From NCBI GenBank assembly GCA_003116975.1, contig BGKB01000007.1, positions 310,001 to 374,000 on the forward strand: a stretch of 64,000 nucleotides of DNA. The letters run 5' to 3'. Of this stretch, positions 30,539 to 64,000 are shown in pieces. Positions within the stretch are counted from its first letter, which is position 1. Every line of letters begins with the position of its first letter. The DNA is from Aurantiochytrium sp. KH105 (Eukaryota; Sar; Bigyra; Thraustochytrida; Thraustochytriidae). A model generated the notes under the pieces. That model saw only the letters and a program-made list of their open reading frames with translations, had not been told where the DNA came from and ran no database searches. Made by a program: the position numbers and the translations under genes.

Positions 30539-33334
30539 TTAGCAACAATGGCACATGGAGGCCGGCGGCGAGTCTGGTGAAATGGGTTCATCGAGAACAA
30601 GTCGCGCAGGCGTAACCCGAGCCGTATTTTGTGAGCCCTTGCGCTGCGATCCTTGGGAGCCTTGCGCCCGGGACGGACGACGTTCTTTCCCGCTGGCACC
30701 TTCCACCTGGTTTGCTTGTCGCTCCATGCTGCCTTTACGCGAGGAAAGCCGCTCAGTGCTCTTTATACCACTGCCTTTGGAAGCTGCCGATGAAGGCCTT
30801 TCGGCTGCACCTGACGAGGAAGCATCTCGTTTAACGATTGCCTCTCGGCTTTGAGTTGACCCGGTGCCTGAAGGTACCTTATTGAGACGGCGTTTCGAGC
30901 TGTAATTCAGGTTGAGTTGGCCCACACAGTACTTTGACATTGCTTGAATGTGTTTTTCGGTGTGCCCTTGTTCTCGGAACTCGGATGTCGCATTAGCCCC
31001 TGCATGCCAATGAATGCTTGCGGCTCCACCAGGATGCTCATCTGCAAATGCTGTCAAATCATACACCTTGCCCTCCACAATAACGTAGCAGTCGCTCGTC
31101 TTGTTATGCTCCTGCACCATTTCCGGCGTGAACAGTTTTCTTCGCTGCGTGGAAGCTAGAGACAGCGTCGAGCCATCCAGAATAAAGGTTGTGGATCGAG
31201 TCGCAAAGCTTCCTTGGTGCGACACAGTGGTTGCATCGGCAATAGAGGATGCAGAGGGACGCAGCACGAGAGATGCCTTTGCTTCAAGATCCCCAGGATC
31301 CAGCACAGGAATCGGCAGAAGCCGATTCTTGAAGCTGCCGCTTGGCGATTGTGGAATTTGCGAAGCATCCATCGATGACGAAAGAGATCGAATTCGAACA
31401 GAGGATCTCTCGCTTGGCATGCCAAGAGTCGTTGCACTTGCACTCTGCGCGAGCACTTTCTCCTTGCGGGCACTTCCTAGCTCAACGAGGCTTCGACTGG
31501 TTGCAAGTGTCGACATCTTCATGACGCCTGCATCCTCAGAATCAGCGTCGAGACCGTGCTCTTCCGAGATGTTCTCCGAGATCGTAGGTTGAGACGTGAG
31601 CCCCGTGTTGCGTCGACTTTCGTAAGCTTGATCCGCTCCCGTAACAGATGACGAATCTTCTTGATGCTCTCGAAACGATGTGACAATTGGCAAGTGCCGA
31701 CGTGAGGAAAAGCTCATATTCAAGTGGCCAATGCAATACTCTTGAAGTCTTTCGATATGCTTGTTGCCGTGGCCCTGCTCGCGAAACACGCCTGTAGCGT
31801 CACATCCCGCTTGCCACTGGATAATGGATTCCCCGCCAGGATGAATTGCCGCAAAATGAGTGAGATCGTACACGCGCCCCTGAATTGCCACCCATGCGTC
31901 TTTAGGGCGATCATGTGCCGCAACGTCTGCCATTGTCAAAAGACGCTTTTTGCCTGATGGGGAGCGAGTCATGTTGACCTGCACACTCTTTAATGACCCT
32001 GATTGGCGAAGGTGGACCTTGTCTTCACCTATTGCCCCTGTTGATGCTCGCCTTGGCGTCTGCCCCACAATCCCTGCAGTATTCAATTCATAAGACTTTC
32101 GTCGTGTTTGGCGCTGAGGCGAAGCTTCAGTCTGGCAGACGCGTCCCACGCAGTACTTTTCAAGGACTTTGAGCTGATGCTGTCCATGGCCTTGCTCCCG
32201 GAACGCAGCAGTGCCGTCCATTCCAGCCTGCCAAGCAATGTTTGCAGCACCTCCAGGGTGGATACTGGCAAACTCTGTCACATCATACACGCGTCCCTCT
32301 ACAATTACCCAAGCATCGTCTGGGCGGTCATGCTCGCTGACTTCTTGAGGCGTCCAAGAGTTCATGATTGGCGAAAGACACTCGCGGTCCTCAGGGGTAA
32401 CGTCTTGGTTGGGTCGCTGAGCTTGCCCAAGGAGAGAGCCTGAAGTTTGTGGAGATGGGGTAAGATTTTCTCCGTGGTCCTCGTCAGGGCTCTGCGGTCC
32501 ATTATCACTGCTTCCACCACTTGAAGCGGCGCGCACTGATTCTAGGAACTTCTTTGTCTCTTCCATCTTGGAATCTGATTCGCTGGACAGCAAGCTCGAT
32601 CGCCGGCGCGTCGTGTTGAGATTAAGATATCCAATGAAATACCTTTCCAGCGCCTGGATGTGGTCGTAACCATGACCCTGCTCGCGAAAGACCTGCGTTG
32701 CGTCGGTTCCAGCATTCCAGGTGATGATCCCACTGCCGCCAGGGTGTTTGTCTGCGAATTCAGTCACGTCATAGACCTTGCCTTCAAGAGCAATCCACGC
32801 GTCACGTGGTTTGTCGTGCGCTTCAATATCGCTTTGCGTCCACAACTTTTTGCTCGTCGAGGTGCCGCTTGTTGCAAATGATTCAACAGATCTTCGGCCG
32901 ACAGATTCGCCTCCGCCACGAATGCTGAGGGAGTCCACGGAGCCGCGACGTCTCATTTCTCCGTGCTCCCGAGGAAGACTGCTTATAGATGGGCGTCTCG
33001 AAGTCGGAAGCGTTGGCACGGAGGTCACGACTCCAACGCAAAACTTTTGAAGAATGTGCAATTGCTTCTCGCCATGGCCTTGCTCCTCGAACGCTTTGGT
33101 TGCATCGCTTCCCGCGTGCCATGTGATATTTGCAGTACCGCCAGGATGAATTTCTGCAAACTCGGTCAGATTGTACACACGACCGTGCACAATGACGAGA
33201 CATGCCTCTGGCGAGTCGTGCTCGGCAACTTCAGCTTCCGTCCACTTGCGCTCGACTTCCATGGTGTTTGCTAGCGTCTTTGTCCCCTCGACGCTGCTAT
33301 CGCCCTCCTCCGTCTTGGTCTGAGCCGTCTCCAT
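30539..33334 (-). CDS. Protein with five tandem cytochrome b5 heme-binding domains
   Basis: The protein has 931 residues from an ATG at 33334. It contains five complete cytochrome b5 domains of about 70 residues. Each has a W/F-x-x-x-x-V-x-x-H entry, a VYDLTxFA-like strand, HPGG, and a second heme-ligand histidine in (F/R)EQGH. The axial pairs are H63/H87, H197/H221, H359/H383, H498/H522 and H767/H791, each exactly 24 residues apart as in classical b5. All five share a Trp six positions after HPGG and an AG(x)(D/N)(A/G)T block, so they are closely related and probably arose by duplication. The linkers are long and Ser/Arg/Gly-rich. There is no transmembrane helix, signal peptide, flavin, desaturase or molybdopterin domain. 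The likely role is multi-heme electron transfer or heme binding in the cytosol, with partners unknown. Confidence 0.92.
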   Translation of the reverse strand: METAQTKTEEGDSSVEGTKTLANTMEVERKWTEAEVAEHDSPEACLVIVHGRVYNLTEFAEIHPGGTANITWHAGSDATKAFEEQGHGEKQLHILQKFCVGVVTSVPTLPTSRRPSISSLPREHGEMRRRGSVDSLSIRGGGESVGRRSVESFATSGTSTSKKLWTQSDIEAHDKPRDAWIALEGKVYDVTEFADKHPGGSGIITWNAGTDATQVFREQGHGYDHIQALERYFIGYLNLNTTRRRSSLLSSESDSKMEETKKFLESVRAASSGGSSDNGPQSPDEDHGENLTPSPQTSGSLLGQAQRPNQDVTPEDRECLSPIMNSWTPQEVSEHDRPDDAWVIVEGRVYDVTEFASIHPGGAANIAWQAGMDGTAAFREQGHGQHQLKVLEKYCVGRVCQTEASPQRQTRRKSYELNTAGIVGQTPRRASTGAIGEDKVHLRQSGSLKSVQVNMTRSPSGKKRLLTMADVAAHDRPKDAWVAIQGRVYDLTHFAAIHPGGESIIQWQAGCDATGVFREQGHGNKHIERLQEYCIGHLNMSFSSRRHLPIVTSFREHQEDSSSVTGADQAYESRRNTGLTSQPTISENISEEHGLDADSEDAGVMKMSTLATSRSLVELGSARKEKVLAQSASATTLGMPSERSSVRIRSLSSSMDASQIPQSPSGSFKNRLLPIPVLDPGDLEAKASLVLRPSASSIADATTVSHQGSFATRSTTFILDGSTLSLASTQRRKLFTPEMVQEHNKTSDCYVIVEGKVYDLTAFADEHPGGAASIHWHAGANATSEFREQGHTEKHIQAMSKYCVGQLNLNYSSKRRLNKVPSGTGSTQSREAIVKRDASSSGAAERPSSAASKGSGIKSTERLSSRKGSMERQANQVEGASGKERRPSRAQGSQGSQRKGSQNTARVTPARLVLDEPISPDSPPASMCHCC

Positions 33335-33590
33335 CTTGGCTTGCGTGTTTAGCTAAAGACGAATCAAATGTGAACTGCGACACGGGGATGCGTTGAACTT
33401 TGGATCAATACTACCTGGCTGAACCCAGGAATGTGCTGTTAAGCCTATACCGCAACGAGACTGGTGCCCGCGCGCCTCGAACAGTTTGAGTCAGCCAGCT
33501 ATATACTTGTGACTCAAAAAATCGCGTCTGACTCTGAAATGTGAGTGGATGGACGATCTTGTCTTCTTGCAGCGGCGTCGGCCAGCTCGA

Positions 33591-49832: not shown

Positions 49833-50085
49833 CCTTGTCTCGACGGCCACGCCGGGGCGTGCGGATGGGTCTCGCTGTTTGATCTTGGTCGCATGTCGCC
49901 GCTCGTCGCGCCCGACCCGCCATGGTTGAAGCTGAAGTTTGTGATGGTGGGCAAGGCCCGTACACACCTGATCACGGGGACCCGGTGTGCACCGGGATCG
50001 CGCGGCCCGGGGACCCCTGGGTCCGGGCGGGTGGCCCGGGGTGGGTGGTGGGCGCAAAGCGCGATTCTGGACGCGGCGAAAGAGG
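49833..50085. promoter_or_regulatory. Bidirectional promoter region between FMO and URB1
   Basis: The two ATGs are only about 250 nt apart and diverge. The sequence is GC-rich, with GGGTCCGGGCGGGTGG-type runs near 50020-50045. The + strand frame is open here but has no ATG before 50086. Confidence 0.45.
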
Positions 50086-53000
50086 ATGGCGGGCGAGCGC
50101 GCGGCAGCGGGCACAGACGCTGGCGTGAGGACGTCGGCGGACACGAAGATGCAGGCGTCCGCGTCGTCCAAGGCGAACAAGAGCGTTCCCGAGGTGGACG
50201 GCCCGCTCGAGGCGCAGGACTTCGTGGCCGCGCTCAACGCTGACGAGACGCACGTCGTCTGCGATGGTCTGGTCCGCTTTGTACAGGCAACGCGAGGCGT
50301 ACAACCGGAGCAGGAGAATAGTGCAGTCAATGAGTATTTGAAGTTGTCTCCAGAGTGCACCGAGATTTTCTCGTGGTGGGATGCCGTGCGAACAGGGCAA
50401 ATGACGGTGGAAAAGGGCTCCGAAGGCAGCGTCATGGCTGCCATCTTCGACGCGTTTGCTGTCATCTTGTTCCTCGCGCATCCTGTCAAAACTACGACCT
50501 CGCAGATCCAGGTCACCCGCAAGCTTCTTTCGCGGACTCGTTTCTTCAACAAATTCCTCGAGTCCACACGCGATCAAAAGCTGCTGCGCAACCTTCTCAA
50601 GCTTCTCGTTGCAATGGTCACGAAAGGAGCTGGGGTCGCTCGTGAGCTCTTTGGCAAACTCCCATTTTCCAGCCCAAACATGCTGCGTCTCGCTGACAAG
50701 GGCGATGTTGGGACTGGCAAGAATCGCACCAGGGGAGGCACCACTCGCTTTGGATCAACGCGTCACCGCTTCCTACAACTCACGCTCGCACTGCTGGAAC
50801 ACGGTGACGTCACAACCAAGAAGCGAGTCATCGAACCCAAGGGCGTGGCCCTGGCAGCCCTCCGTCGCATCGACGAGGACCCTACGGACATGGTGACTTT
50901 TTTCCTGACTGGACTTAAGACCTTTGTTTTGCAGGACACCGCGATCGGGAGGAAGGCAAAGATCACATTTTTCGGACAGCCGCTCGTCCTTGAGACCATG
51001 CTGCTCCCCTTGTACGACTCACCTCACAAGATGGTGCGAGACTGTGTGCACGATTTTCTCTTTGCCGCTGTAGTGCGTCCGGAGTCGAGCGTCTTTCCCG
51101 CTATTTCGGACATTGCCAACGCAGACTCCCTCAAAGCGGAAAACGCTGCTTTCAACAAGCGAATCGAATCACAGCTTGCGCGACGAAACAGAATCATCGC
51201 TTCGATGGCTCGTTCGCTCAATCCCGTCAATGACCCGAAACAGCGTGAGCTTCTCTTGGCCATTCTCGAGCTCGATGACTCCCTTATGGAGGCCTTCTTT
51301 GCCACGAGCTGGAACAAAATCAATCTCGATCCCCGGCCGTCCATTGTATGGGTGCGAAACGTGGTCTTTGTGCGCAAGTTGCTCAATTTTCCTCCGCCCA
51401 AGACGCAAAACCTAGAGGCCTTTCGAAATGTAACCGCCCAGACGAGTGACGACGACGTCTCAGGTGAGACAAACATGCCCACATTTAACAGCCCGGCGGC
51501 ATCCAAGCTCGATGCTTTCGCCAATACGGTGCTAGCATGTGCGCTTCCGAGCGCAACTGCTGTTTCACGCGCGATGCTGAGCAAGGGAATTCAACACAGC
51601 AGCAGTCTTGTTGTCGTTCACACACTCGATCTTCTTTCGCATTTGCTACAGCGTATCGTACTCGTCATGGAGGAGTCGCTTCGGGCAGATCAAGGAGGCG
51701 CGCCGCCGGACAGCGTTTCCCTAAGGGATACTGTTGGCCGCAAGCTCGTCCATCGCATCCCAGATGTGAGCGTTTTGATCACGCTCGTAATGACCGCAAG
51801 TCAGAAGCATAAATCATGGCAAGCCGAGGAAGCGGAGTGGGTCCTCTTCAAGGCGGCACGCGTTATGCACTGGTATGGGTCTCTCCTACCCGAAACTCTC
51901 CATGGCAAGCTTTCCATCGAAAAATTCTTGCCCCTGTACGACGCGCCGCCTTCGAGTGTATCTCTGGCGGCGCACATCTCGTTTGCGCGCATGTTTGACG
52001 CCGTGGGTGCAGCGAACCTTGCATGGCAGAGGGCCGAGGCCCTCTTGCGTGTTTGTCAACTTCGTTGCTTCTGCGCGCAAGACGTGAATACGATTGACGC
52101 GATCATTGAAAACATTTTCGTCTCGCTCGTGGCGACGTCCTCGTACGTGGCAGGGCGAAGGTCGAGCGAAAGGATTCACGCTAGGGCATGGGCCAAAGCA
52201 GCACATTCACTTGAAGACGCTACCTTTGTGGCTCGGACAATCACCGAAGCGGTGACGTCCAAGCCTTTTCCAAGCTGCGACGAAATTTTACTTCTCGGTC
52301 TCGAAGAAGCTCGGCGCAGCGAATCAGCAACAGGTAGCAAGGTGTCTCGTGACGTCATGCACCGGGTCGTGGTTGAGCTCGTTCATACACTTTCAGATCT
52401 ATCAAAGCTTGTTCCCGTTCTCGTCGAGGCAAACCTTACCGACATGATTCCTGCAGGGGACTCCATTCTCAAGTATATTCAGCATGTGCTGGGCGTCCCT
52501 GTTCCTGGGGCTGAAAAGCTGAGCTCAAGTTCTGCGGCAAGGACCTTTGTACGTGAAGTCCTGGCTGTTGACGTCACTCCAAAGCGCTCTGCACGAGCCT
52601 TTCGTACGAGCTTTGGCATTGCTTTGCAGAGCGCGTTCAAGAGCGCGGACTATCAGCGGTCTGCCCTAATCCCATCCGAGGGTGTCCCCAACGCTCGTAC
52701 GAGGTTGCTTGACGCAGTCGATGAGGTGCCATCTGAGGATGTTAATGAGATCGCACTTTTCGTTTCACGCGCGATTGGGGCCTTTCTTGATGCCGCTCAG
52801 GAGCCTCGGTCCTCGGATGCAGGACCTGCGCTAGAGTTGTGCATGGAAATTCTTATCGCATGCGTGGACAAAGATCCCGAGTGTATTGTCGAAAGTTTGA
52901 GTGGACATTCGGCTTTGCGCGAACTCGAGGTAGTCCCCCAAGCGGTGCAGGTTCGTTTGGGTCAGCTATTTGATGCAGCTCGCGATTCGACGAAACTCTA

Positions 53001-56000
53001 CGCGGCGTCCATCAGCGTTCTCACATCCTGGGTTGCTCTTTTCGAGAACAGCCCTAATGAAGACGTTGCCTGCTGCCTGCTCCTCAGTCGCCACTGCCTG
53101 GTCCAGTCGCGGCTTCAAGACGCTGCAATTAGCCTCCTCGACCGCATCTCCGCGGCGCATCTGGAATCCGAAAAGGAAAAACCACTATCGCGTGCTCTCG
53201 TTCTCTACGCACTCTCACATGGCCCTGCGGACGCCCAAACCCTCCTCCGTCTCCTTCAAATGGCCGACCGTCAGCCAGGTCCAGACGTTGACGATGCGCT
53301 TGTGGGTTGCTGCGAAAAGCTTGTGCGCGAGCATTCGTTGACGACGCGCGCGAGCTTTGTAGGCGCGGCATTGCAGGATCCCACAAGCGCAGTGTGTGCT
53401 GCGGCCTCGGTGCTTTGGACTCAGCCCTCTCTGAAGCGGGTCCATGCGCTCTCGCTCTTGTCTGGCTGGACCTCGCTCGCTGAGACGGCCCTCGCATACT
53501 TGTCTCGCGAAGGCGGCGACATTGCGCTCTTTTGGGAGTTCTTGGCTCACTGTCCTCGTCGCGTCTGTGTTCAGCACTGCTCCTCGGATCTCTCGAAGCG
53601 AATTCGCACGCAAACGATTCGTGATGCTCCTTTGCCGCGACAAGCGTTTATTGCCGAAGCGAAACTGAATTTCGCACGAAAGGGAAAACGGAGCGATATC
53701 GAGAACCTTGTGGAGGCTGCCCTCGACAGCACTGCAAGCGACCACGAGAAGGGGCTCGCTTTGGAATTGCTCGTCAGAGAAGGGAAGAAGGAAGCTGAAG
53801 AGATTGCTGCTCAGCATGCTGGCCAAGCCCCAGAAGCAGACGATGGCGGAGACAGTGCATCGGCCTTTCGCGAGGCGCTCTACGATAAATACGCGGGGCG
53901 TCTCGCAAGCGATTTGCTGCAGGGCGCGCTGGACGCAGCGTCGGATGCTGCTCGCTTCAAGGACCTTCAAATGCTCGAGCGTCTTGTTGACGTTGCAAAC
54001 GGCCAAGCGCAGGGGCGTGTTCCTGCGAGCGTTGTATCGCGCGCAATTCAGTGTGCGGCATCCGATGACAGAATGATGAAGACCGTACTTGGACTTCTCG
54101 AGTCTGGTCTTGCTTTTGCCTCCGAAGCGCACGTGGATGCTGTCTTGGCTTTCAAGGGGCTTCACGGTAATGAAGCGCTCGAGCGCATCTGGCTCAGCCT
54201 GGCGCAGCGACTCCCTGCTTCGGCATGCCCACATGAGCGCTTTGAGGGTCTGCTGGCGTCTTATAAGGGTACAATGGGTGCAGGAGACTGCGTGCGGCGA
54301 TGCCTCATTCAGATCTTTGAGGAGCAACGATCGGGTTCGCTTGACGCCTTTGCGTACTGCATTGGCGAGAGGGCATCGCTGGACGCAGAGACAATTGATG
54401 TTCCCTGCGAGAGCTCCACCGAGGCAACAGATCCAGTCGTTCTACGAACGCTTTTGACATCTCACTTCGACTGGATCTTCACGGACCTCGATTTCCAGGG
54501 CAGTCTTTCAACTTCCTTCCCCATCTTCCGCAGCATGAGTCCACAGAGCCCGCAGCCCTATTGTCTTTCTGCGTGGCGAATTTCGGACCTTGTGGACATG
54601 CATAATGAGGTCAATAAGCGCGTGCACGTGCCACAATCCACCAAGAAGAGGGCAAGGCCACAATCGCAGCATGGAAAATCAACCTCCAGTAAGCGTGCCA
54701 AGCAACTCGATGCATCATACGAGGAGCTCGGCTCCGACGGACCGGGGAGTGACAGCGACAGTGGCCATGGTAGCGACAGCGACAGCGAGTCTGGAGAGGA
54801 AGAGGAAGAGGAAGAGGTCGTTGCCGAAGACATGGCGAGCGGCGATGAGATGGATTCGCATGCGAAGGCTGTCTCTACTCTCGGAGGCGGAATCGCCAAA
54901 GATATTCATCAGGAGATTGAGGCTTTGGCTAAAAATGAGACGCATTCGGAAGCTGTCGACCCCAGCTTTGCGCTGCGAGTGCTTGACCGCTTCTTTACAC
55001 TTCACGCTGTGCTTGCGGATTTGCCTGCCACATCCGCTGATGAAGATGATAGCGACGAAGACACGATGGATGTCGATGAGAACACTGGTGAACCTCAAAG
55101 GCGTCGCGAGAGTTTGGCGGTTGCCTTCCCTTCACGACGACTTATCGACAGCGGAGTCGCTGCGTTCTGTATCTGGGCCCTGAGTTCGTTTTGTGAAGAC
55201 GTGCGCAGGATAGCAGCCCGGTGCTTGCAGCGCTTTGGTCAGCTTCTGATGCGGGATCCCTTGTTCAAGGACAAAAAGCAGTTTCTTCTCGTGCTGCGAT
55301 ACTTGCGAAATGCGCTCGAGACCGGTGTCTCGACGCGTGTGTCTGGAATTCATTGCAGCTTTATCTCTCACGCTCTTGACATCGTTGGCAAGCCTTCTCA
55401 CAGCATGTACGAACTCGTATATCGCTTCCTTCTTCGCGCCCCTGCGATGGATCTTTCCTCGGTGCCATTATTTTACCACACGTTCTCGAGCGGGACACCA
55501 AACTACCGCGTTGAGCGGAGCTGGATGGTCCGTGTCATGGAGCAAGGCATCCGATCTCGCTTTGACGTTGGCGTGCTGGTGAATCGCCACGTACCGAGCA
55601 TCTTCATGTCCTTTGTGAGCTCGCCCATAGGCGACGTATATATGCACAAGCATGTGTTGGAGGTGCTCGTTAAGACTGCACGATCAGGACCACATGGCGC
55701 CCGCGAACTTGTGCGTGCTGGTGTGATCGGTTGGGCGACCCAAGTGTTGGCGCAGAGCCTTGAGCGAGACGATCTCGCGGCATCTGCTCTCGTCGACCTC
55801 ATCGAACTGTTGTGGCACGCCGCAAAGGTCGCGGCTCTGCCCTCGAATGCTGATCATCCAGGCAAGGGCTCCGACCAGGGATCAGATGGGGTGGTCGCGG
55901 AGAGCGTCTGCAAGGCAATAGATATTGAGGCGGTATGTGCGGCATCTTGGCTGGTTGAGGAATTTCCGCGACTGCTGGTTTCCTTGGGGGACTACCAACC

Positions 56001-56550
56001 TCGTGCACTTCGTTTCGCAGTCGACGCGCTCGTCCTGTGGAGCGGCATCGCGGCTGGCTTGCATGCAATCGCGAGCGACCACAGAGTTCTTTCGGTCTGC
56101 TGCAAGCAAGAAGGCTCGCTTGAGATTGCCTGGACCGACATGGCAAACTTTCTTATATCTTGCGAAAATCTGATTGGCCAGGAGCCGGATCTGGTTCTAG
56201 GACTGTTTGCCATTGTGCTCCGCAACCGCAGCACGATTGTCTCAAAAGAAGAACGTGCTGCTCGACTCGATGTGGTTATGCGATGGTTGCTTGATCGCCT
56301 GCTGCATTGTGACCCGCAGGCGACGCCACACGAGCGTCTTCTCTCATCATGCTGTGCTGAGGCGTTCTGCGCCTGGGTCCGAGCGCACGATCTTGCGGCG
56401 GGAAGCGGCGATGCTCTTGAAGCTCGTCTGCACTCTCTAATAATGGCGGACTTCTTTGATGAGTCATCGGAAAGTACTGCGATCGTGCGGCAGCTTTCAC
56501 GAGCCTACATGCTGGATGCTCGCAAATCTCTGCTCGGCGCACTTTTGTAG
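50086..56550 (+). CDS. URB1: URB1/Npa1-like ribosome-biogenesis protein
   Basis: The start is at ATG 50086 (A at -3, G at +4), giving 2154 residues. The N-terminal 500 residues follow the URB1/Npa1 plan: an EYLKLSPECTEIFSWWD segment, helices with KLLRNLLKLLVAMV, the FLQLTLALLEHGDVTTKKRV block, and ALRRIDEDPTDMVTFFLTGL followed by VLQDTAIGRKAKITFFG. The middle is helical-repeat sequence. Near residues 1520-1595 sits a basic segment (KKRARPQ and KRAKQ), probably a nuclear signal, followed by a Ser/Asp/Glu-rich acidic stretch. The URB1 C-terminal helical region then follows (IHCSFISHALDIVG, MDLSSVPLFYHTFSSG, and a YRVERSWMVRVMEQGI block). Npa1 acts in early 60S pre-ribosome assembly in the nucleolus with Dbp6, Npa2/Urb2, Nop8 and Rsa3. 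The length fits the family. Confidence 0.88.
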   Translation: MAGERAAAGTDAGVRTSADTKMQASASSKANKSVPEVDGPLEAQDFVAALNADETHVVCDGLVRFVQATRGVQPEQENSAVNEYLKLSPECTEIFSWWDAVRTGQMTVEKGSEGSVMAAIFDAFAVILFLAHPVKTTTSQIQVTRKLLSRTRFFNKFLESTRDQKLLRNLLKLLVAMVTKGAGVARELFGKLPFSSPNMLRLADKGDVGTGKNRTRGGTTRFGSTRHRFLQLTLALLEHGDVTTKKRVIEPKGVALAALRRIDEDPTDMVTFFLTGLKTFVLQDTAIGRKAKITFFGQPLVLETMLLPLYDSPHKMVRDCVHDFLFAAVVRPESSVFPAISDIANADSLKAENAAFNKRIESQLARRNRIIASMARSLNPVNDPKQRELLLAILELDDSLMEAFFATSWNKINLDPRPSIVWVRNVVFVRKLLNFPPPKTQNLEAFRNVTAQTSDDDVSGETNMPTFNSPAASKLDAFANTVLACALPSATAVSRAMLSKGIQHSSSLVVVHTLDLLSHLLQRIVLVMEESLRADQGGAPPDSVSLRDTVGRKLVHRIPDVSVLITLVMTASQKHKSWQAEEAEWVLFKAARVMHWYGSLLPETLHGKLSIEKFLPLYDAPPSSVSLAAHISFARMFDAVGAANLAWQRAEALLRVCQLRCFCAQDVNTIDAIIENIFVSLVATSSYVAGRRSSERIHARAWAKAAHSLEDATFVARTITEAVTSKPFPSCDEILLLGLEEARRSESATGSKVSRDVMHRVVVELVHTLSDLSKLVPVLVEANLTDMIPAGDSILKYIQHVLGVPVPGAEKLSSSSAARTFVREVLAVDVTPKRSARAFRTSFGIALQSAFKSADYQRSALIPSEGVPNARTRLLDAVDEVPSEDVNEIALFVSRAIGAFLDAAQEPRSSDAGPALELCMEILIACVDKDPECIVESLSGHSALRELEVVPQAVQVRLGQLFDAARDSTKLYAASISVLTSWVALFENSPNEDVACCLLLSRHCLVQSRLQDAAISLLDRISAAHLESEKEKPLSRALVLYALSHGPADAQTLLRLLQMADRQPGPDVDDALVGCCEKLVREHSLTTRASFVGAALQDPTSAVCAAASVLWTQPSLKRVHALSLLSGWTSLAETALAYLSREGGDIALFWEFLAHCPRRVCVQHCSSDLSKRIRTQTIRDAPLPRQAFIAEAKLNFARKGKRSDIENLVEAALDSTASDHEKGLALELLVREGKKEAEEIAAQHAGQAPEADDGGDSASAFREALYDKYAGRLASDLLQGALDAASDAARFKDLQMLERLVDVANGQAQGRVPASVVSRAIQCAASDDRMMKTVLGLLESGLAFASEAHVDAVLAFKGLHGNEALERIWLSLAQRLPASACPHERFEGLLASYKGTMGAGDCVRRCLIQIFEEQRSGSLDAFAYCIGERASLDAETIDVPCESSTEATDPVVLRTLLTSHFDWIFTDLDFQGSLSTSFPIFRSMSPQSPQPYCLSAWRISDLVDMHNEVNKRVHVPQSTKKRARPQSQHGKSTSSKRAKQLDASYEELGSDGPGSDSDSGHGSDSDSESGEEEEEEEVVAEDMASGDEMDSHAKAVSTLGGGIAKDIHQEIEALAKNETHSEAVDPSFALRVLDRFFTLHAVLADLPATSADEDDSDEDTMDVDENTGEPQRRRESLAVAFPSRRLIDSGVAAFCIWALSSFCEDVRRIAARCLQRFGQLLMRDPLFKDKKQFLLVLRYLRNALETGVSTRVSGIHCSFISHALDIVGKPSHSMYELVYRFLLRAPAMDLSSVPLFYHTFSSGTPNYRVERSWMVRVMEQGIRSRFDVGVLVNRHVPSIFMSFVSSPIGDVYMHKHVLEVLVKTARSGPHGARELVRAGVIGWATQVLAQSLERDDLAASALVDLIELLWHAAKVAALPSNADHPGKGSDQGSDGVVAESVCKAIDIEAVCAASWLVEEFPRLLVSLGDYQPRALRFAVDALVLWSGIAAGLHAIASDHRVLSVCCKQEGSLEIAWTDMANFLISCENLIGQEPDLVLGLFAIVLRNRSTIVSKEERAARLDVVMRWLLDRLLHCDPQATPHERLLSSCCAEAFCAWVRAHDLAAGSGDALEARLHSLIMADFFDESSESTAIVRQLSRAYMLDARKSLLGALL

Positions 56551-57258: not shown

Positions 57259-60200
57259 TCAGCTGAATGAGCGCGTGAACGAGGTCGACTCATCAGGCTT
57301 TGGACGAAGCTCACTTTCGCCGTGCGCGAAAAAGCATTGATCCCCCTTAAAACAGTCGGTACCATTCGAGGATTCCCAATTTCGGCACAATTTCGTCTTG
57401 TAGTGCGGATCTGCCTTGGGATCCCCCGTGTATCTTGGCTTCCTTGGGTGATGCGACTGGGTTGCCGCGTGGGGACCGCGCCAGTTATCGCGCGGGGCAC
57501 GCGCTGACGAGGCGAAGCCCGAGCCCCGAGGCGGGGACGACGAGAGTGGCGACGGTGACGGGGACCGCGATCGTCCTCGTGCTGCCGATCCAGGTCCGCT
57601 TTGCGAATTTCGTCGAGGTCGAGTCCCTGGCGCCGAGCTCAGACTCCCACCACCCCCTCCGTTGCTCATGCCACCATTGCTGTTGAAAAGGTGTGGAGGC
57701 GCGATGATGGGGTCATTGATGCCAGGGAATCGCGGTGGCGGCGACCATGGCTGTTGCTTGCGTGACTGCGGCGACCCTGTCACAGAAGATGATGATGCCA
57801 TCGATGGAGAATCCCTCGATGAAGTCTCAAAGCCAGGTGGCGGCCCACGAGATCCAGAACGATGACGACTCGTTACTGTCGCCGGATCAGAGGATGTCGA
57901 AGGAAAGTCTTCAAAACCCGGCGGCGGCTCGACAATTACCGGGGGAAGAATGTCCTCTTGCGTCACGGTGCTTGGCAGGTGACCATTTGAATCGTCCGGG
58001 TCCAACGAACCGTCATCTTTGATCGAAGAATACCTCGCAGGTCTCGAACTAGATGCAATAGACGCTGTCTGTTGTGCAGCTGCAGACTGCTTCTGTTTGT
58101 TTTTTCCATGTTTCGGTGGTTTTCCTGACGAAGAAGAACCGCCGGTTGCGCTCTGGCTATTTCCTTGCTGCTCGCCTAACGAATCCATGACACACTGCGG
58201 TCGAAGACGGAAAGGACGTTCGCTCTCGGTTCCTTCAGCCACGCTTGTCAATGTGTCCATGCCATCCGACGGCGACAAGGTGCCAAATTTCTCAGAACCC
58301 GCGGGCGCCTCCTTGGCACGCTTGGCGCATGCAGCAGCATCAGGGCCGTACTTGGCAACGGTGAAAGGGCCAAGAATCTCGGCAAATTCGGGCTCGTGAG
58401 CGCAAAACTCGAGAATGAAACGGTGGCACGACATGAGGAGTTTGGGAAAGCGATTCGAGCCAATGAATTCGTCCAGAAATCGATCCGGAAGAGGGGACAA
58501 CAAGTCTCGAACCTCTGGCGTCGACTCACGGATATGAGAATACTTGTTGCGCATGTAGCGCAACAAATCCCGCAGTGAATGGGTCGTGTAGTAGCGCCGT
58601 TTGCTGTCGACAACGTCGTTGCGCAGACTCGGATGCAGGCGCTGAAGCCAGCCCTGCGAGCCAAAAACTTCTCGTGCATATTCCTCAAAGCGCTCATGGA
58701 GGGTGGACTCAGGTACGGAGAAGGGTCGTGGATCGCTACCGCTCGCCCGATCCTCTACGACGCGGTCAAGCTCGAGACGATCGCTCACGTGTTTCAAAAA
58801 CTCGAGCTTGCGCGACGCTGGCCACAGAAGCGGGTGCTCCATGCACTCCTCAATACTCGGGCGCAATTGCGCATCGTGGCGAATCATCTGACCGATCAAG
58901 TCCTGTGCCTCGGGATAGTTCTTGATTCGCCCCAGATTTACCGGTGCGTCATCCATGATGTTCTTTTCTCGTTCAATGGCATCACCAAAAGGGTGGAATC
59001 CATTGCTCACCACATAAAAGAAGACGCACCCCATGGAGAAAACGTCGACCTTGCGTCCGCAACGAATCGCCACGTCGCGCTCGAGCTCGGCGTCACCTTT
59101 GCTCCGAAGAGAAGAAAGAAGTTCGGGTGCACGCCAGCCCACTGTACCTGAGCCATGCATACTCGTGCCACCATAAATGGAGCTCGTTGTACCTGAAAAT
59201 TTGCGACCGAGACCCATGTCTGAGAGCTTGGGCTCAAAGAACTCTCCAAGACCAGCAAGGTACGAGCTTCCACCGACACTGCGCGACCCTTGTGACTCTG
59301 CCTCGACCAAGGTACCCGAGCTCGCAGAGACTGATGATACCGAGACGGTCATGGCGCCGGTGACGAGGCTCGTGGGGCTCGATGCCGGCACAGAAGGCCC
59401 AGGGGCGCCGCTGCTGATCGCCGAAGGGTCCCAAGACCCCTCGGCCACTTCTGCCTTGGCTGCGTCCACCTTCTTGGTTTCAATGACGAGAATATTTTGC
59501 GGCTTAATGTCGCAATGAACGATGCATAGCGAATGAAGGTGTTTTGTTGCATCGGCAAGACTGTGCAAAAAGGCAATCGTGGTGTCTGGCAAGCGGACAT
59601 TTTTCTTTGCGCTCTTGGGCACAAGTTCCCGACGACTTCGATTCAGATCGCGGATACTCTCCACGGCCTTTTCCAGCGTAAAGTCGCATAATTCGAGTGC
59701 AAGGTAAATAAATTCCCGCGTCTCCTCTTGCGTAAAGTAGCGCACGACGTTCGAGTGGCCATCTGAGCGAATGAGAAGGTCGATCTCCTTCTTTGCCAGC
59801 TGAAATTGGCTCGCCACCACCTTTTTCACTGCAACAGGACGATCACGAAGTCGCCCTTTGAGAACCGTGGTGCCATGGCAGCCGCGACCAAGAACTGAGT
59901 CGAGCTGCACGGTGAGCTGACCCACACGCTCTGTCTCGGTAGCGGGGTCATACTGGACCTCGAGCTCTTGGGCTGACCCGCGTTTGTGACGCCGGATCAG
60001 ATTCAGCCTGCTCGCCAAAAGAACAAGAACCAAAATTAAAAGAGCGCCAATGACGGTCTGCAGCGTCCGCTCTCGTCCCGCGTCCATAGGTGCAGGTGGA
60101 TAACCTGGGGGATCAAAGTGCGTATGCCTTGGGGTCTCCGAAGGGGTTGCTCCGTGGTTCGTTGTGCCAGATCCAGGACTCGGCAGACCGCGCGAAGTAG

Positions 60201-61635
60201 GAGGAGCGCCAAGGCCTGGCCAACGAGGCGGCGAGGACGATTTAGTGACGCGGCCAGAGTCCACTGGGGAGTCAGTAATGTCGTCTGCGTCGCCATAAAT
60301 CAGGTGCTGGTCAGTCACATGATATGGGCCCTGCAACGGAAAGTCCTCGTCGACGACCGTGCACTGTTCTTGGTCCATGGCAACGCCGGCCACGCCGGCG
60401 TCACTTGAACGATAGCCAATGTCCTCAGGGAAAACAGCATTGCTGCAGCGGATATCTCTTCCCGGGCGACTTGTTGTGGCGTACACCTGCACGTGGCCGC
60501 TCTTGTATTTGATACGTTGCAGATAAATGGGTTTGGCCTTGGGCAGATTCCCAATGACCGCCTGGCCTTCGTTTCCAATCGAGACCTCGGACAAAAACCG
60601 CCAGCTCTTCTTGGACGACTGCGCCCGACTCACGCCAAAGACGGCCGTTACAGGAACGCCTTCCCAGGTCGCGCGTTGCGACATGGCCGTGTCGATCTCA
60701 AGATTTCGCGAACTCAGACGAGGAACGTCACGGTCGCGCGAGAGAAACTGGCCATATGTGAAATTCCAAACTTCCAGTCCCGACACCGCATTATACGCAC
60801 GCACGTGATAGTCGACGCGGCCGATCGTCAGTGGCGAGGCATCTGGAAAGTGCACATCTTTGTTGCTGAGCTCGGGCGGCTGGGAGTCACCAACAATTTC
60901 CCATCGCCCGTTCAAAAGTGATCCAGTATCTGAGGTAAAGACACGGAGGCGCCGACCTGTATTGGGATCAATCTCATAGTACGACGTTTTCCGCTGGCCG
61001 ACGACGCGAATTTCACCTTCTTCGCCTCCGAGTGTATCAGTGAGCGGGCAGCTATTGACGAGATCTGGGATAGAAAGAGGATGCAGCGAAAGGTCATCCT
61101 CCTCTTCAGAAAAAATATAGAGTTGGCCGTCATCTCCAGGGACGACGCCACCCTTGAAAGAGGGTGCCTGGAAAGATTTGATGGTGGGTCCCCCAACTTC
61201 ATCCGTCGTCCAGAGTTTCTCTCCATCCTCCACACGGACACCGTGCACTTCTCCATCCACAGTGCCGACAATCATAACTTCTGGCGTCTCTGCAACGCCG
61301 TAGTGAATTACCGGTGTATTGTCGGTGTTCTCCCCGGACGCACTTTCGCCCGCGGCCCGACTTGTGGCAGATGCAGTCCCTACAGCGCCAGGCTTGATTT
61401 GTACATCGACCATAAGATCGTCGGCAGCATTGTCAACGTCAATGCCATCGTCTAAAGTGATATCGTCATCTAAAACGAGGTCACCATTTTCGTCACTTGA
61501 GGCCTTGGCTGCGGTCGATGCCAATGCGCTGACAGCGCCTCTCCCTCGTCGAGGTCTTGCACCTGCTGAAGTCTGCTCCGATCCCACCAACAAAACCAGC
61601 ACAAGCCAGAAGCTAAGCAGTCTGCTGGTGAGCAT
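57259..61635 (-). CDS. IRE1: IRE1 unfolded-protein-response kinase/RNase with C-terminal CCCH zinc finger
   Basis: The start is the first ATG (61635), followed by a signal peptide (SFWLVLVLLVG); the protein has 1458 residues. The luminal half contains PQQ/WD-like segments (VMIVGTVDGEVHGVRVEDG, then YEIDPNTGRRLRVFTSD, then GLEVWNFTYG). The TM helix is near 525-547 (IGALLILVLVLLASRL). The kinase has LGRGCHGTTVLKG (~580), VAVKKV, VHCDIKPQNIL (~705; HCD instead of HRD), an ~80-residue insert, KLSDMGLGRKF (~805; DMG as in plant IRE1) and GTVGWRAPELL. The KEN RNase keeps LRDLLRYMRNKYSHIRE (~1025-1040), including the Arg-Asn and His equivalent to the catalytic residues of yeast Ire1. Beyond the usual end are ~330 extra residues with two PPPGFE motifs (~1233 and ~1263) and a CCCH finger (~1408-1440). 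It acts in the ER membrane, splicing or cleaving mRNAs on ER stress. Confidence 0.95.
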   Translation of the reverse strand: MLTSRLLSFWLVLVLLVGSEQTSAGARPRRGRGAVSALASTAAKASSDENGDLVLDDDITLDDGIDVDNAADDLMVDVQIKPGAVGTASATSRAAGESASGENTDNTPVIHYGVAETPEVMIVGTVDGEVHGVRVEDGEKLWTTDEVGGPTIKSFQAPSFKGGVVPGDDGQLYIFSEEEDDLSLHPLSIPDLVNSCPLTDTLGGEEGEIRVVGQRKTSYYEIDPNTGRRLRVFTSDTGSLLNGRWEIVGDSQPPELSNKDVHFPDASPLTIGRVDYHVRAYNAVSGLEVWNFTYGQFLSRDRDVPRLSSRNLEIDTAMSQRATWEGVPVTAVFGVSRAQSSKKSWRFLSEVSIGNEGQAVIGNLPKAKPIYLQRIKYKSGHVQVYATTSRPGRDIRCSNAVFPEDIGYRSSDAGVAGVAMDQEQCTVVDEDFPLQGPYHVTDQHLIYGDADDITDSPVDSGRVTKSSSPPRWPGLGAPPTSRGLPSPGSGTTNHGATPSETPRHTHFDPPGYPPAPMDAGRERTLQTVIGALLILVLVLLASRLNLIRRHKRGSAQELEVQYDPATETERVGQLTVQLDSVLGRGCHGTTVLKGRLRDRPVAVKKVVASQFQLAKKEIDLLIRSDGHSNVVRYFTQEETREFIYLALELCDFTLEKAVESIRDLNRSRRELVPKSAKKNVRLPDTTIAFLHSLADATKHLHSLCIVHCDIKPQNILVIETKKVDAAKAEVAEGSWDPSAISSGAPGPSVPASSPTSLVTGAMTVSVSSVSASSGTLVEAESQGSRSVGGSSYLAGLGEFFEPKLSDMGLGRKFSGTTSSIYGGTSMHGSGTVGWRAPELLSSLRSKGDAELERDVAIRCGRKVDVFSMGCVFFYVVSNGFHPFGDAIEREKNIMDDAPVNLGRIKNYPEAQDLIGQMIRHDAQLRPSIEECMEHPLLWPASRKLEFLKHVSDRLELDRVVEDRASGSDPRPFSVPESTLHERFEEYAREVFGSQGWLQRLHPSLRNDVVDSKRRYYTTHSLRDLLRYMRNKYSHIRESTPEVRDLLSPLPDRFLDEFIGSNRFPKLLMSCHRFILEFCAHEPEFAEILGPFTVAKYGPDAAACAKRAKEAPAGSEKFGTLSPSDGMDTLTSVAEGTESERPFRLRPQCVMDSLGEQQGNSQSATGGSSSSGKPPKHGKNKQKQSAAAQQTASIASSSRPARYSSIKDDGSLDPDDSNGHLPSTVTQEDILPPVIVEPPPGFEDFPSTSSDPATVTSRHRSGSRGPPPGFETSSRDSPSMASSSSVTGSPQSRKQQPWSPPPRFPGINDPIIAPPHLFNSNGGMSNGGGGGSLSSAPGTRPRRNSQSGPGSAARGRSRSPSPSPLSSSPPRGSGFASSARAPRDNWRGPHAATQSHHPRKPRYTGDPKADPHYKTKLCRNWESSNGTDCFKGDQCFFAHGESELRPKPDESTSFTRSFS

Positions 61636-62677
61636 GGGACCCGCAGAATTTCTGCAAAGGGTACCACCAGGCCCGCAATACAACGCTCAGCCTACTTCAC
61701 GCGTTGATCTCAGACCGCGCTCGGTTGAGTCGGCGTGCCGCAACGCCCTTGAGCGTTCGAAAGGGTCTGTCGCCCCTTCCGTGCGCCGATACGCGCCGCA
61801 CCGTTCTCCGCGCTGTACTTTCGCTGGTTCCGTCGCTAGACGTTGGCGCGACTCCTGTCGCTATCGCAGAAGCCCACGACTTCCGTCCTCGCTCCTCCTC
61901 GCGGTCGCGGTCGCGGTCGCGGTCGGTGCCGGAGTCGGAGTCGGAGTCGTCGTCGTCGTCGACCACGTAGTCCAGATGGATTGATCGAGCGTGCCTCCCG
62001 AAGAACCGCTCCCTTCAGCTACACGCGGCGGCGCGAGGGCGTTCCCGCGCGGACGTCGACGACTCGGGGCGCGGCGCGGCGCGGCGTAGCGCAGCTCGCG
62101 CGGGGCCCGCCGCAGCCTTGGGGCTCGGACGGGGTCGCGTCGCGATTTTGCATGCAGATCGCCGCCGCCCCCTTTGCGCCCTCTGCGGTCCTAAAATTAC
62201 CCCGCGGCGCCTATCGCCCCTATCGCGCTTAGCGCGCAGAGGCGTTCCCCCGAGTTTCCCCGCGGCCCTGGATTCAGGGCCGCGGAGCCCCGGTTCCGGG
62301 GCCGGGCGCGGCGCGCACGGCGCACGGGGGCGGCGGCAGAGGGCCGTTGGGCCACTTGATGGGCCGGTTTTTGCGCGCCCGTGGTGAGGGGGAATGAATG
62401 AATGATGACGGCGGAGATGGCGGCGGTCGCTCGGGGCGAAAGTGGGACGCGGTCGCGCGGCAGCAGAGCTGGCTTGACTGCCTGGCTCGCGGCGAGCGTG
62501 CGCTGGGCGGCCGGAAGCGACTCCCTTCTTTGGAAGTGGAGCGACGTGCGTTGCCAGTCTCGGTCTCGGTCTCTTGGTCGAGGTCCAGGTCGAGGTCTCT
62601 GCGCTTGGCGAAGCAAAGAGAAAATGCAACCCGGGCCGGGCGTGCGCGCTGCGCGCAGAGAATACTGGGCTAGCGTC
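61636..62677. promoter_or_regulatory. Divergent GC-rich intergenic region between IRE1 and tectonic
   Basis: This is the shared 5' region of IRE1 (-) and the tectonic gene (+). It includes CGGTCG/GGAGTC hexanucleotide runs (about 61903-61963), GGCGC-rich stretches (62070-62340), and a short reverse-strand frame at 61697-61966 rich in Asp/Ser/Arg. That frame ends just before the IRE1 frame and could be an upstream ORF in the IRE1 leader. No independent gene is supported. Confidence 0.5.
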
Positions 62678-64000
62678 ATGAGGGCAGCAGCCGTGGTGGT
62701 GGTGCTCGCGAGCGCTGCACCGGGAGGAGAGGCGATGACCTTTGCGTACGGGAATGCATACGAGATGCTGACGCCCGGAACCGGCAACCAAGGTGTCGAC
62801 GTGACGTGGGCTTCTGTGCCGCTCTTGACAGAAGCGTCAACCGGGTACGTCCCGCTTCCATCGGGTTGCGAATGCCTTGACCTAGCGCAGACTGCCGAAA
62901 CATGCACAGCGTTCACGTGTCACGAAACGTGCAATCTCAATATTGGCGAGTGTGACGAATTTTGTTGCAGCGACCCGGACTGCACCGCCGATGATCTCGA
63001 ACGCTTCAACGCGCTGGGCGAATGTTTGCCCGATGGTAGCTCTACAGACAGCAAATTATGCGTTGACACCACTTCGTTGGACCAGGTAAATGAAAAATAC
63101 AACATGCATGTGGAACAGGACGACAACGCATTAGAAGGCCTCGTGTGTGTAAGTGTGGAGAACAACGCCATCGAGGGGGAATTTTATTCGTCGCAAGCGG
63201 ATCTTGTGAATAATTATGCCGTGTTGGACTCGGAAACGTATCAGCCATCCTATTCTTTCGCAATTAGCGCCGACTCTGACGCAGAGACGGGCAGCCAAGA
63301 ATACCTTTTCGGCGACAATCTCGTGGCTGCGATCCAGACAGACTCGTTTCGAGCTGCTTGGGGCGGCGTGCTAAGTTTGCCTACTGCGGGCGTCGACGGC
63401 ACGTGCTCGCCGCAAAACTTTGTGGAATTCGGCACGGATGTTCAAGTGAACGAGTGCCTTCTGCCCGTCGAAAACCTGGAAGCAACATGTACTCAGACAC
63501 ATGGTCCATTGTCCACAGCACTCTACGGGGAAGACCTTTACATTGGCACGAGACCTTCTTCCGCCATCAACACCCCTTCGACCGATTGGGAAAGGGTCAC
63601 GGTGCGAAGCTTGCTATACAAGTCGCTGGAAACGGGTAGCGTATCAAGCTGGGAGAGCGGCAGTACCTCAAGCCCAACTGCTCAACCCACGTCAGAGCCC
63701 ACGGCGCTCTCGACTGCGTCTCCTACGGAATCTTCATCAGACGCAAACTCTACGGTGAGCGTCAGTCCCACCGTCGCTCCTTCTGCTTCACCGACGGATG
63801 CGCCGAGCGCGAGACGTGCCTTACAAGTGAGCAGCGTGCCGTCCACGACTTGGGATGCAAGCAGCGGCACATGCGAAAACGCGGTGGTTGGCGTCAAATA
63901 TGTAATTCAGCACAACGCCTTGGGCGTAATCACCAACGTTCAGGTAGACTTGACATTGTCAAACGTGGACTTGTCCAGTGCAGCACAGACAGCCCAGCAG
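62678..64000 (+). CDS. TCTN: Tectonic-family ciliary protein (5' part, cut by window edge)
   Basis: From the ATG at 62678 the frame is open to base 64000 (441 residues), so the 3' end is missing. A short hydrophobic N-terminus (AAAVVVVLASAA) looks like a signal peptide. The Cys-rich segment CNLNIGECDEFCCSDPDC, followed by a Leu/Phe-rich stretch, CLPDG and LCVDTTS, is the tectonic signature (compare CDVNCCCDxDC in animal TCTNs). VCVSVENNAIEGEFY and the later CENAVVGVKYVIQHN and GVITNVQVDLTLSNV also match the tectonic domain. A Ser/Pro/Thr-rich linker with repeated SPT/AP units (about residues 330-385) interrupts the domain. Tectonics belong to the MKS/B9 complex of the ciliary transition zone, implying that this organism makes cilia or flagella. 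Confidence 0.83.
   Translation, partial: MRAAAVVVVLASAAPGGEAMTFAYGNAYEMLTPGTGNQGVDVTWASVPLLTEASTGYVPLPSGCECLDLAQTAETCTAFTCHETCNLNIGECDEFCCSDPDCTADDLERFNALGECLPDGSSTDSKLCVDTTSLDQVNEKYNMHVEQDDNALEGLVCVSVENNAIEGEFYSSQADLVNNYAVLDSETYQPSYSFAISADSDAETGSQEYLFGDNLVAAIQTDSFRAAWGGVLSLPTAGVDGTCSPQNFVEFGTDVQVNECLLPVENLEATCTQTHGPLSTALYGEDLYIGTRPSSAINTPSTDWERVTVRSLLYKSLETGSVSSWESGSTSSPTAQPTSEPTALSTASPTESSSDANSTVSVSPTVAPSASPTDAPSARRALQVSSVPSTTWDASSGTCENAVVGVKYVIQHNALGVITNVQVDLTLSNVDLSSAAQTAQQ

Follow-up and report, generated by a model that had tools for sequence, protein, structure and literature searches.

The window, by which we mean the whole analysed stretch of 64,000 nucleotides, carries on its minus strand a gene identified from its sequence as IRE1. 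The stop-to-stop frame that holds it spans 57259-61683; the first in-frame ATG, at 61635, opens a single frame of 1458 amino acids (MLTSR...) that closes with a stop at 57259-57261. Neighbouring it, by Pfam, are a gene for Npa1/NopRA1 (60S biogenesis) and a tectonic-like frame, at 49987-56547 and 62402-64000. Elsewhere in the window, a 936-amino-acid frame (30545-33352, minus) holds five cytochrome-b5-like stretches (PF00173, 3.7e-110), a seemingly unusual array. The features of the IRE1 gene are as follows.

57259..61635, minus: IRE1 gene, 1458 codons plus stop, uninterrupted frame
60061..61635, minus: signal-peptide-like start and lumenal region, residues 1-525 (sequence, by eye)
59995..60057, minus: likely transmembrane helix, residues 527-547 (sequence, by eye)
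58810..59904, minus: kinase domain, residues 578-942 (Pfam PF00069, 3.5e-29; PDB yeast IRE1)
58378..58809, minus: KEN RNase domain, residues 943-1086 (Pfam PF06479, Ribonuc_2-5A/KEN, 2.7e-23, above cut-off)
57928..58365, minus: proximal tail, residues 1091-1236, fast evolving
57910..57927, minus: PPPGFE motif 1, residues 1237-1242, identical in the second copy
57826..57843, minus: PPPGFE motif 2, residues 1265-1270, identical in the second copy
57436..57795, minus: Ser/Pro/Gly/Arg-rich stretch, residues 1281-1400, disorder judged from composition, basic towards the finger
57298..57405, minus: tristetraprolin-like CCCH finger with lead-in and FAHGESELR, residues 1411-1446
57322..57387, minus: Cys/His core of the finger, residues 1417-1438

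The IRE1 gene and its genome

The kinase is followed directly by the KEN domain in the Pfam matches, and the best solved relative among PDB sequences is yeast IRE1 (3.1e-72). The kinase match lies above the Pfam cut-off, with its best stretch at residues 578-722. Read by eye against the yeast IRE1 alignment, the kinase carries VAVKK, HCDIKPQN and SDMG, and the KEN domain retains RNKYSH and the upstream Tyr; these include the catalytic residues. Two local departures from yeast IRE1 were seen in the kinase, HCD for HRD at 59494-59517 and DMG for DFG at 59200-59223, the Asp being retained in both. An excerpt of PMC3710099 gives Rx4-6H as the catalytic pattern of KEN domains. We conclude that the gene is an IRE1 with kinase and KEN domains whose catalytic residues are retained, and its product is predicted to cleave mRNA on endoplasmic reticulum (ER) stress.

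Upstream of the kinase, the lumenal region gives a weak PQQ-type Pfam match that stays under the cut-off (0.011), and residues 1-530 evolve at a dN/dS of 0.09 between the two genomic copies of the gene. The membrane helix is followed by a short basic stretch, RRHKRG, the one basic run of a helix-to-kinase linker some 30 residues long. From the lumenal sequence, 121 bases (60601-60721) recur at 96% identity at 273678-273798 of contig C79 as a small dispersed gene fragment, and a 40-base piece (61922-61961), just upstream of IRE1 or in its start region, matches contig C171.

Across the whole genome the KEN search finds only IRE1, in two copies. The assembly comprises 76.0 Mb in 367 contigs and search matches usually come in near-identical pairs, so we take it to hold two haplotypes or two subgenomes. 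The same genome holds PfaA-like polyunsaturated-fatty-acid synthase stretches, the best scoring 930 bits over positions 6-1035 of 2582 with a cut-off of 1010; that model also rings, under its cut-off, in 11 of 14 control genomes. PfaA being linked to thraustochytrids, these stretches agree, though weakly, with a thraustochytrid origin of the DNA.

A long C-terminal tail: reading frame and selection

The original prediction held that the IRE1 frame runs on past the KEN domain for about 330 residues. The frame does continue, and its length is nearer 370 residues, since the KEN domain ends at about residue 1086 and the stop follows residue 1458. The second copy, on contig C10, begins at the same Met, has the same length and frame with no indels, and is identical in both PPPGFE motifs and in the finger core; 32 residues differ between the copies over the whole protein. 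For comparison, their 3′ flanks mismatch at 56 of 699 aligned bases and are broken by five inner gap runs (a sixth run, of 98, is an uneven alignment end and is not counted as inner). An assembly error at the tail, a concern raised with the original prediction, is therefore very unlikely, as is a pseudogene.

Neither copy has an in-frame stop before 57259. The KEN domain thus cannot end without the tail unless an intron is present, and by the same reasoning a separate downstream CCCH gene is rejected, again unless an intron intervenes, because IRE1 would have no stop of its own. Chance openness of such a frame is rare: of 20,000 first-order Markov sequences with the tail's own statistics, 5 were free of stops through 368 codons, and for residues 1091-1393 alone the figure was 54 of 20,000. 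Synonymous codon choice, judged against ten other long frames of the window, leans towards genes over the whole tail (z 2.64); the three parts of the tail taken singly reach only 1.36 to 1.59, and the lumenal, kinase and KEN parts 4.4 to 7.1. By a plain codon score the tail frame gains no support between about residues 1123 and 1400, the Ser/Pro/Gly-rich part, a result that we attribute to amino-acid composition.

Sequences resembling splice donors and acceptors are present within the tail or shortly upstream of it, and 3 of the 12 listed pairings (405, 672 and 516 bases) would keep the frame, so alternative splicing or 3′-end choice could yield IRE1 forms with and without the finger, leaving the tail regulated or partly absent. 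The indifferent codon score fits such a scheme; the lack of any stop until 57259 in either copy, the lack of indels and the synonymous choice over the whole tail speak against it, and we consider it quite improbable. The tail, as read from both copies, is part of the real IRE1 frame; in-frame introns are conceivable, and we infer full-length expression.

Selection along the tail was estimated throughout from one pair of copies, that of the window and that of C10, and it is uneven. Residues 1091-1260 carry 14 nonsynonymous and 4 synonymous changes without indels and look near neutral by the local ratio, nonsynonymous changes being as fast as synonymous ones; the same 14 changes compare with 32.8 expected from the gene-wide dS (Poisson 1.8e-4). 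Beyond them, residues 1261-1393 have 1 nonsynonymous and 5 synonymous changes, and the finger region, 1394-1458, has 2 of each, its 2 nonsynonymous changes against 6.3 expected (0.05) being alone not decisive. Joined after its parts had been inspected, the span 1261-1458 shows 3 nonsynonymous changes in 441 sites, where the dS of the tail itself would predict about 18 (Poisson 1.8e-5). Over the 120 residues 1281-1400, bounds likewise picked post hoc, there is no amino-acid change between the copies. The KEN span, residues 943-1090, has 0 nonsynonymous and 10 synonymous changes. As an observation apart, dS in the tail (57262-58365) is 0.041, roughly half the value seen in the remainder of the gene (Fisher p 0.010).

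On these counts residues 1261-1458 look constrained. The prediction of a tail in one frame with IRE1 is confirmed, with its distal part conserved between copies. Were the tail a by-product of fusion with little function, the near-neutral proximal part would be expected; the constraint over 1261-1458 (the Poisson value above) is at odds with that account, which we regard as most improbable.

The CCCH finger and the PPPGFE motifs

The finger, CRNWESSNGTDCFKGDQCFFAH at residues 1417-1438, follows C-x10-C-x5-C-x3-H, is led in by YKTKLCR and ends in FAHGESELR. The first spacing, C-x10-C where C-x8-C is usual, had been pointed out in the original prediction and is correct. Searched with phmmer against PDB sequences, the finger finds 11 chains at E up to 10: the best is 9y10 ('C3H1-type domain-containing protein', 2.2e-10), followed by TIS11d (1.1e-7), tristetraprolin (4.9e-7), 6nzl ('Cytoplasmic zinc-finger protein', 4.8e-6), Roquin-1 (0.0047) and Unkempt (0.0087), the others being weaker. 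The chains from 9y10 to 6nzl, TIS11d and tristetraprolin included, are solved tandem-CCCH chains, and these matches bear out the description of the finger as tristetraprolin-like. With a query of 113 amino acids no Pfam CCCH model passes its curated cut-off (best PF25427, 22.9 against 31.1 bits; PF00642, 15.2 against 20.5), which is consistent with the odd spacing, and the finger is not among the 40 matches of a genome-wide PF00642 search at E 0.001.

Within the genome, the nearest finger is the first of a tandem tristetraprolin-like protein encoded on contigs C25 and C71 (50-53%; 1.3e-5 and 1.5e-5). The 12 other distinct finger stretches (18 loci by pattern, some of them mutual copies) have x7 or x8 in place of x10. 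At Cys2+2 the IRE1 finger has Lys, where both fingers of the genome's tristetraprolin-like protein have Tyr; at Cys3+2 it retains Phe. These two positions we take to be the base-stacking sites on RNA in TIS11d. The spacing falls within a broad CCCH definition, C-x4-15-C-x4-6-C-x3-H, given for plant CCCH proteins in an excerpt of PMC3391233.

The tail resembles tristetraprolin/TIS11 (ZFP36) in its finger with the YKTKLCR lead-in, in FAHGESELR and in its PPPGF-type GYF ligands. It differs in that tristetraprolin has two fingers, YKTEL and PPPPGF, and the IRE1 tail has one finger, C-x10-C, YKTKL and PPPGF; unlike the tristetraprolin fingers, moreover, this one is joined to a membrane-bound RNase. 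Membership of the tristetraprolin family is rejected on two of these counts, one finger instead of a tandem and C-x10-C instead of C-x8-C. A C-terminal CNOT1-binding motif is a further feature of tristetraprolin; the IRE1 C-terminus reads RPKPDESTSFTRSFS, in which nothing resembling that motif was spotted by eye.

RNA binding by the finger is likely. Specificity for AU-rich elements, put forward earlier as one candidate, finds no support in a single finger with Lys for Tyr at Cys2+2 and YKTKL for YKTEL, and remains only a candidate. There are single CCCH fingers whose function does not involve sequence-specific RNA binding, and one finger reads few bases. This background, together with the C-x10-C spacing and the Lys that depart from the genome's tristetraprolin-like fingers, would suit a module for protein-protein contact or zinc-dependent oligomerisation, or a ribosome or RNP tether, with no selection of mRNAs. 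Such a role seems improbable to us for a finger whose sequence is closest to tristetraprolin/TIS11d-type fingers, whose flank is basic (14 Lys and Arg against 3 Asp and Glu in residues 1331-1410) and whose Phe at Cys3+2 is retained. An mRNA-binding finger is the reading that we prefer.

Both PPPGFE motifs of the original prediction, noted at about residues 1233 and 1263, are present, at 1237-1242 and 1265-1270, with 22 residues between them. They lie past the likely membrane helix, on the presumed cytosolic side, their exposure being judged from composition only. Two PPPGF occur in a fraction of 0.0001 of shuffles of the tail protein that preserve its proline runs. The two motifs differ in codons at 4 of 6 places, encode the same residues and sit in unlike flanks; residues close to motif 1 change between the copies (P1245S, V1254A) and both motifs are identical. 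The window has 16 stop-to-stop frames of at least 400 codons, and only that of IRE1 contains PPPG-phi, in two places. The looser PPG-phi is found at three places in IRE1, of which one is lumenal, and two of the other 15 frames have it once each. The lone lumenal instance reads PPGY in the window and SPGY in the second copy; a cytosolic GYF domain would have no access to it.

Candidate partners are encoded in the same genome. A GIGYF-type GYF domain has GIGYF1 as its best PDB match (2.4e-16); upstream of it, in the same frame, stands YSRDEMYLF, which in our judgement resembles a 4E-binding motif. A 4EHP is also encoded; its match is at 8.7e-48, and no other eIF4E chain does better than 1.5e-25. 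By our reading of the alignment, the GYF domain retains the equivalents of all six groove residues (Y538, F549, W557, Y562, F563 and L567) listed in an excerpt of PMC12249416, and the SMY2-type Asp as well. Excerpts of PMC12171015 and PMC12249416 describe the binding of PPG-phi by SMY2/GIGYF-type GYF proteins, and one of PMC13409970 the recruitment of GYF2-4EHP by tristetraprolin through PPPPGF. The assignment of the tail motifs to the GYF-ligand type is thereby supported, as are likely partner genes for them.

DNA coding for PPPGFE is present at 9 places in the 76-Mb genome, against 4 for the backward pattern: 4 in IRE1 (two motifs in two copies), 2 in a pair of genes for a UBC-domain protein, 2 in a BUD31 pair and 1 in a repetitive protein. 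Without IRE1 the count is 5, on a par with the backward control. The motifs in BUD31 and the UBC-domain protein are unlikely to serve GYF binding, and PPPGFE is therefore no proof of such a role. Nor is the motif shared with the local tristetraprolin, since PPG-phi was not found in the 1033 codons examined of the tandem-finger frame on C25.

These counts favour an account in which mRNA docking for KEN cleavage is left to the finger and basic stretch, and PPPGFE binds some other GYF protein or nothing, without 4EHP repression. The 17 GYF matches in the genome, which fall at several unrelated places, leave the partner unfixed in the same direction. What tells against it is the pair of motifs itself, in different codons and unlike flanks and identical in both copies despite the changes beside them, and the presence of a GIGYF-type GYF domain with an intact groove. 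We think this account unlikely, and prefer recruitment of GIGYF and 4EHP.

A proposed docking and repression module, and comparison with known systems

The choice of mRNAs by IRE1 is a long-standing question. We propose, tentatively and at somewhat less than even confidence, that the tail serves as an mRNA-docking and a GIGYF-4EHP repression module together. The docking part, in which the tail would hold mRNAs through a finger that may bind RNA, is on its own slightly better than an even bet; the repressor part, in which PPPGFE would bind GIGYF, is possible. In this mechanism, stress in the ER lumen would cluster IRE1, and each clustered molecule would present its C-terminal basic stretch and single tristetraprolin-like finger as a docking site analogous to the yeast linker box. 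Because one finger would bind RNA weakly, clusters alone would have the grip needed to keep mRNAs in place for cleavage by the KEN RNase. By way of the two PPPGFE motifs the GIGYF-type GYF protein would be brought in, and 4EHP with it; translation of mRNAs that are docked or cut would then be prevented as well.

RtcB RNA ligase, a candidate for the joining of tRNA exons or of IRE1-cut mRNAs, gave no match in the 76-Mb assembly, its model ringing in 9 of 14 control genomes. The ligase families PF09511 and PF08302 gave none either, but the control genomes were silent as well, so that these two blanks do not speak for absence. More doubtful still is the fullest form of the proposal, a one-chain, stress-triggered mRNA silencer that would sense stress, pick mRNAs through its finger when clustered, cut them and block their translation through GIGYF-4EHP. 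With no RtcB found, its main work might in that case be the selective decay and repression of mRNAs and not the splicing of a transcription-factor mRNA.

Relatives were sought in two contig collections with patterns from this one IRE1, which reach close relatives only. In the viral collection, which is without eukaryotes, none was confirmed; in the genome collection, built without eukaryotes by design, the best 80 of 85 matches all fell in query residues 3-248, that is, in the kinase and not in KEN, came from records titled as bacteria and were set aside.

The fusion of a CCCH finger to kinase-KEN has a precedent. For KEN (RNase L/Ire1), Table 1 of a 2013 HEPN survey (PMC3710099) records fusions to an S/T/Y-Kinase with 'ankyrin repeats, CCCH in some'. 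Like the IRE1 described here, such proteins unite kinase, KEN and CCCH in one chain; the table line is silent on domain order, organism, membership of IRE1 and GYF motifs. The earlier statement that no IRE1 with such a tail is known is thus weakened as regards the CCCH finger. It stands for the combination, in that an IRE1 tail with GYF-ligand motifs and a tristetraprolin-like finger was not found described in full-text literature with few subscription journals, and the excerpts of PMC4891664 and PMC12898128 hold nothing on IRE1 tails.

In its kinase and KEN domains with retained catalytic residues, its likely single membrane helix and its lumenal region, the protein agrees with IRE1 (ERN1/Ire1p); it differs in the C-terminal tail of about 370 residues with two PPPGFE motifs and a CCCH finger, and in the linker of about 30 residues. 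Regnase-1 is likewise an mRNA-degrading endonuclease with a CCCH finger; its RNase fold is unrelated to KEN and, unlike IRE1, it has no ER-stress sensor. Its arrangement is a PIN RNase followed by one CCCH finger (excerpt of PMC4772114).

The closest functional parallel concerns docking. According to an excerpt of PMC4279078, cutting by yeast Ire1 requires that HAC1 mRNA first dock on a basic box within the linker, a U1A RNA-binding module considerably restores splicing once that box is removed, and in animals XBP1 mRNA reaches the membrane through a hydrophobic signal that it encodes. The yeast box and its U1A bypass likewise place an RNA-docking element outside kinase and RNase in the same molecule; in yeast this is a basic peptide before the kinase, and here, in our proposal, it is a zinc finger that follows KEN. 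If a lineage has fused a finger of RNA-binding type and motifs of the translation-repressor type to its IRE1, nature would have arrived at its own form of the laboratory U1A bypass.
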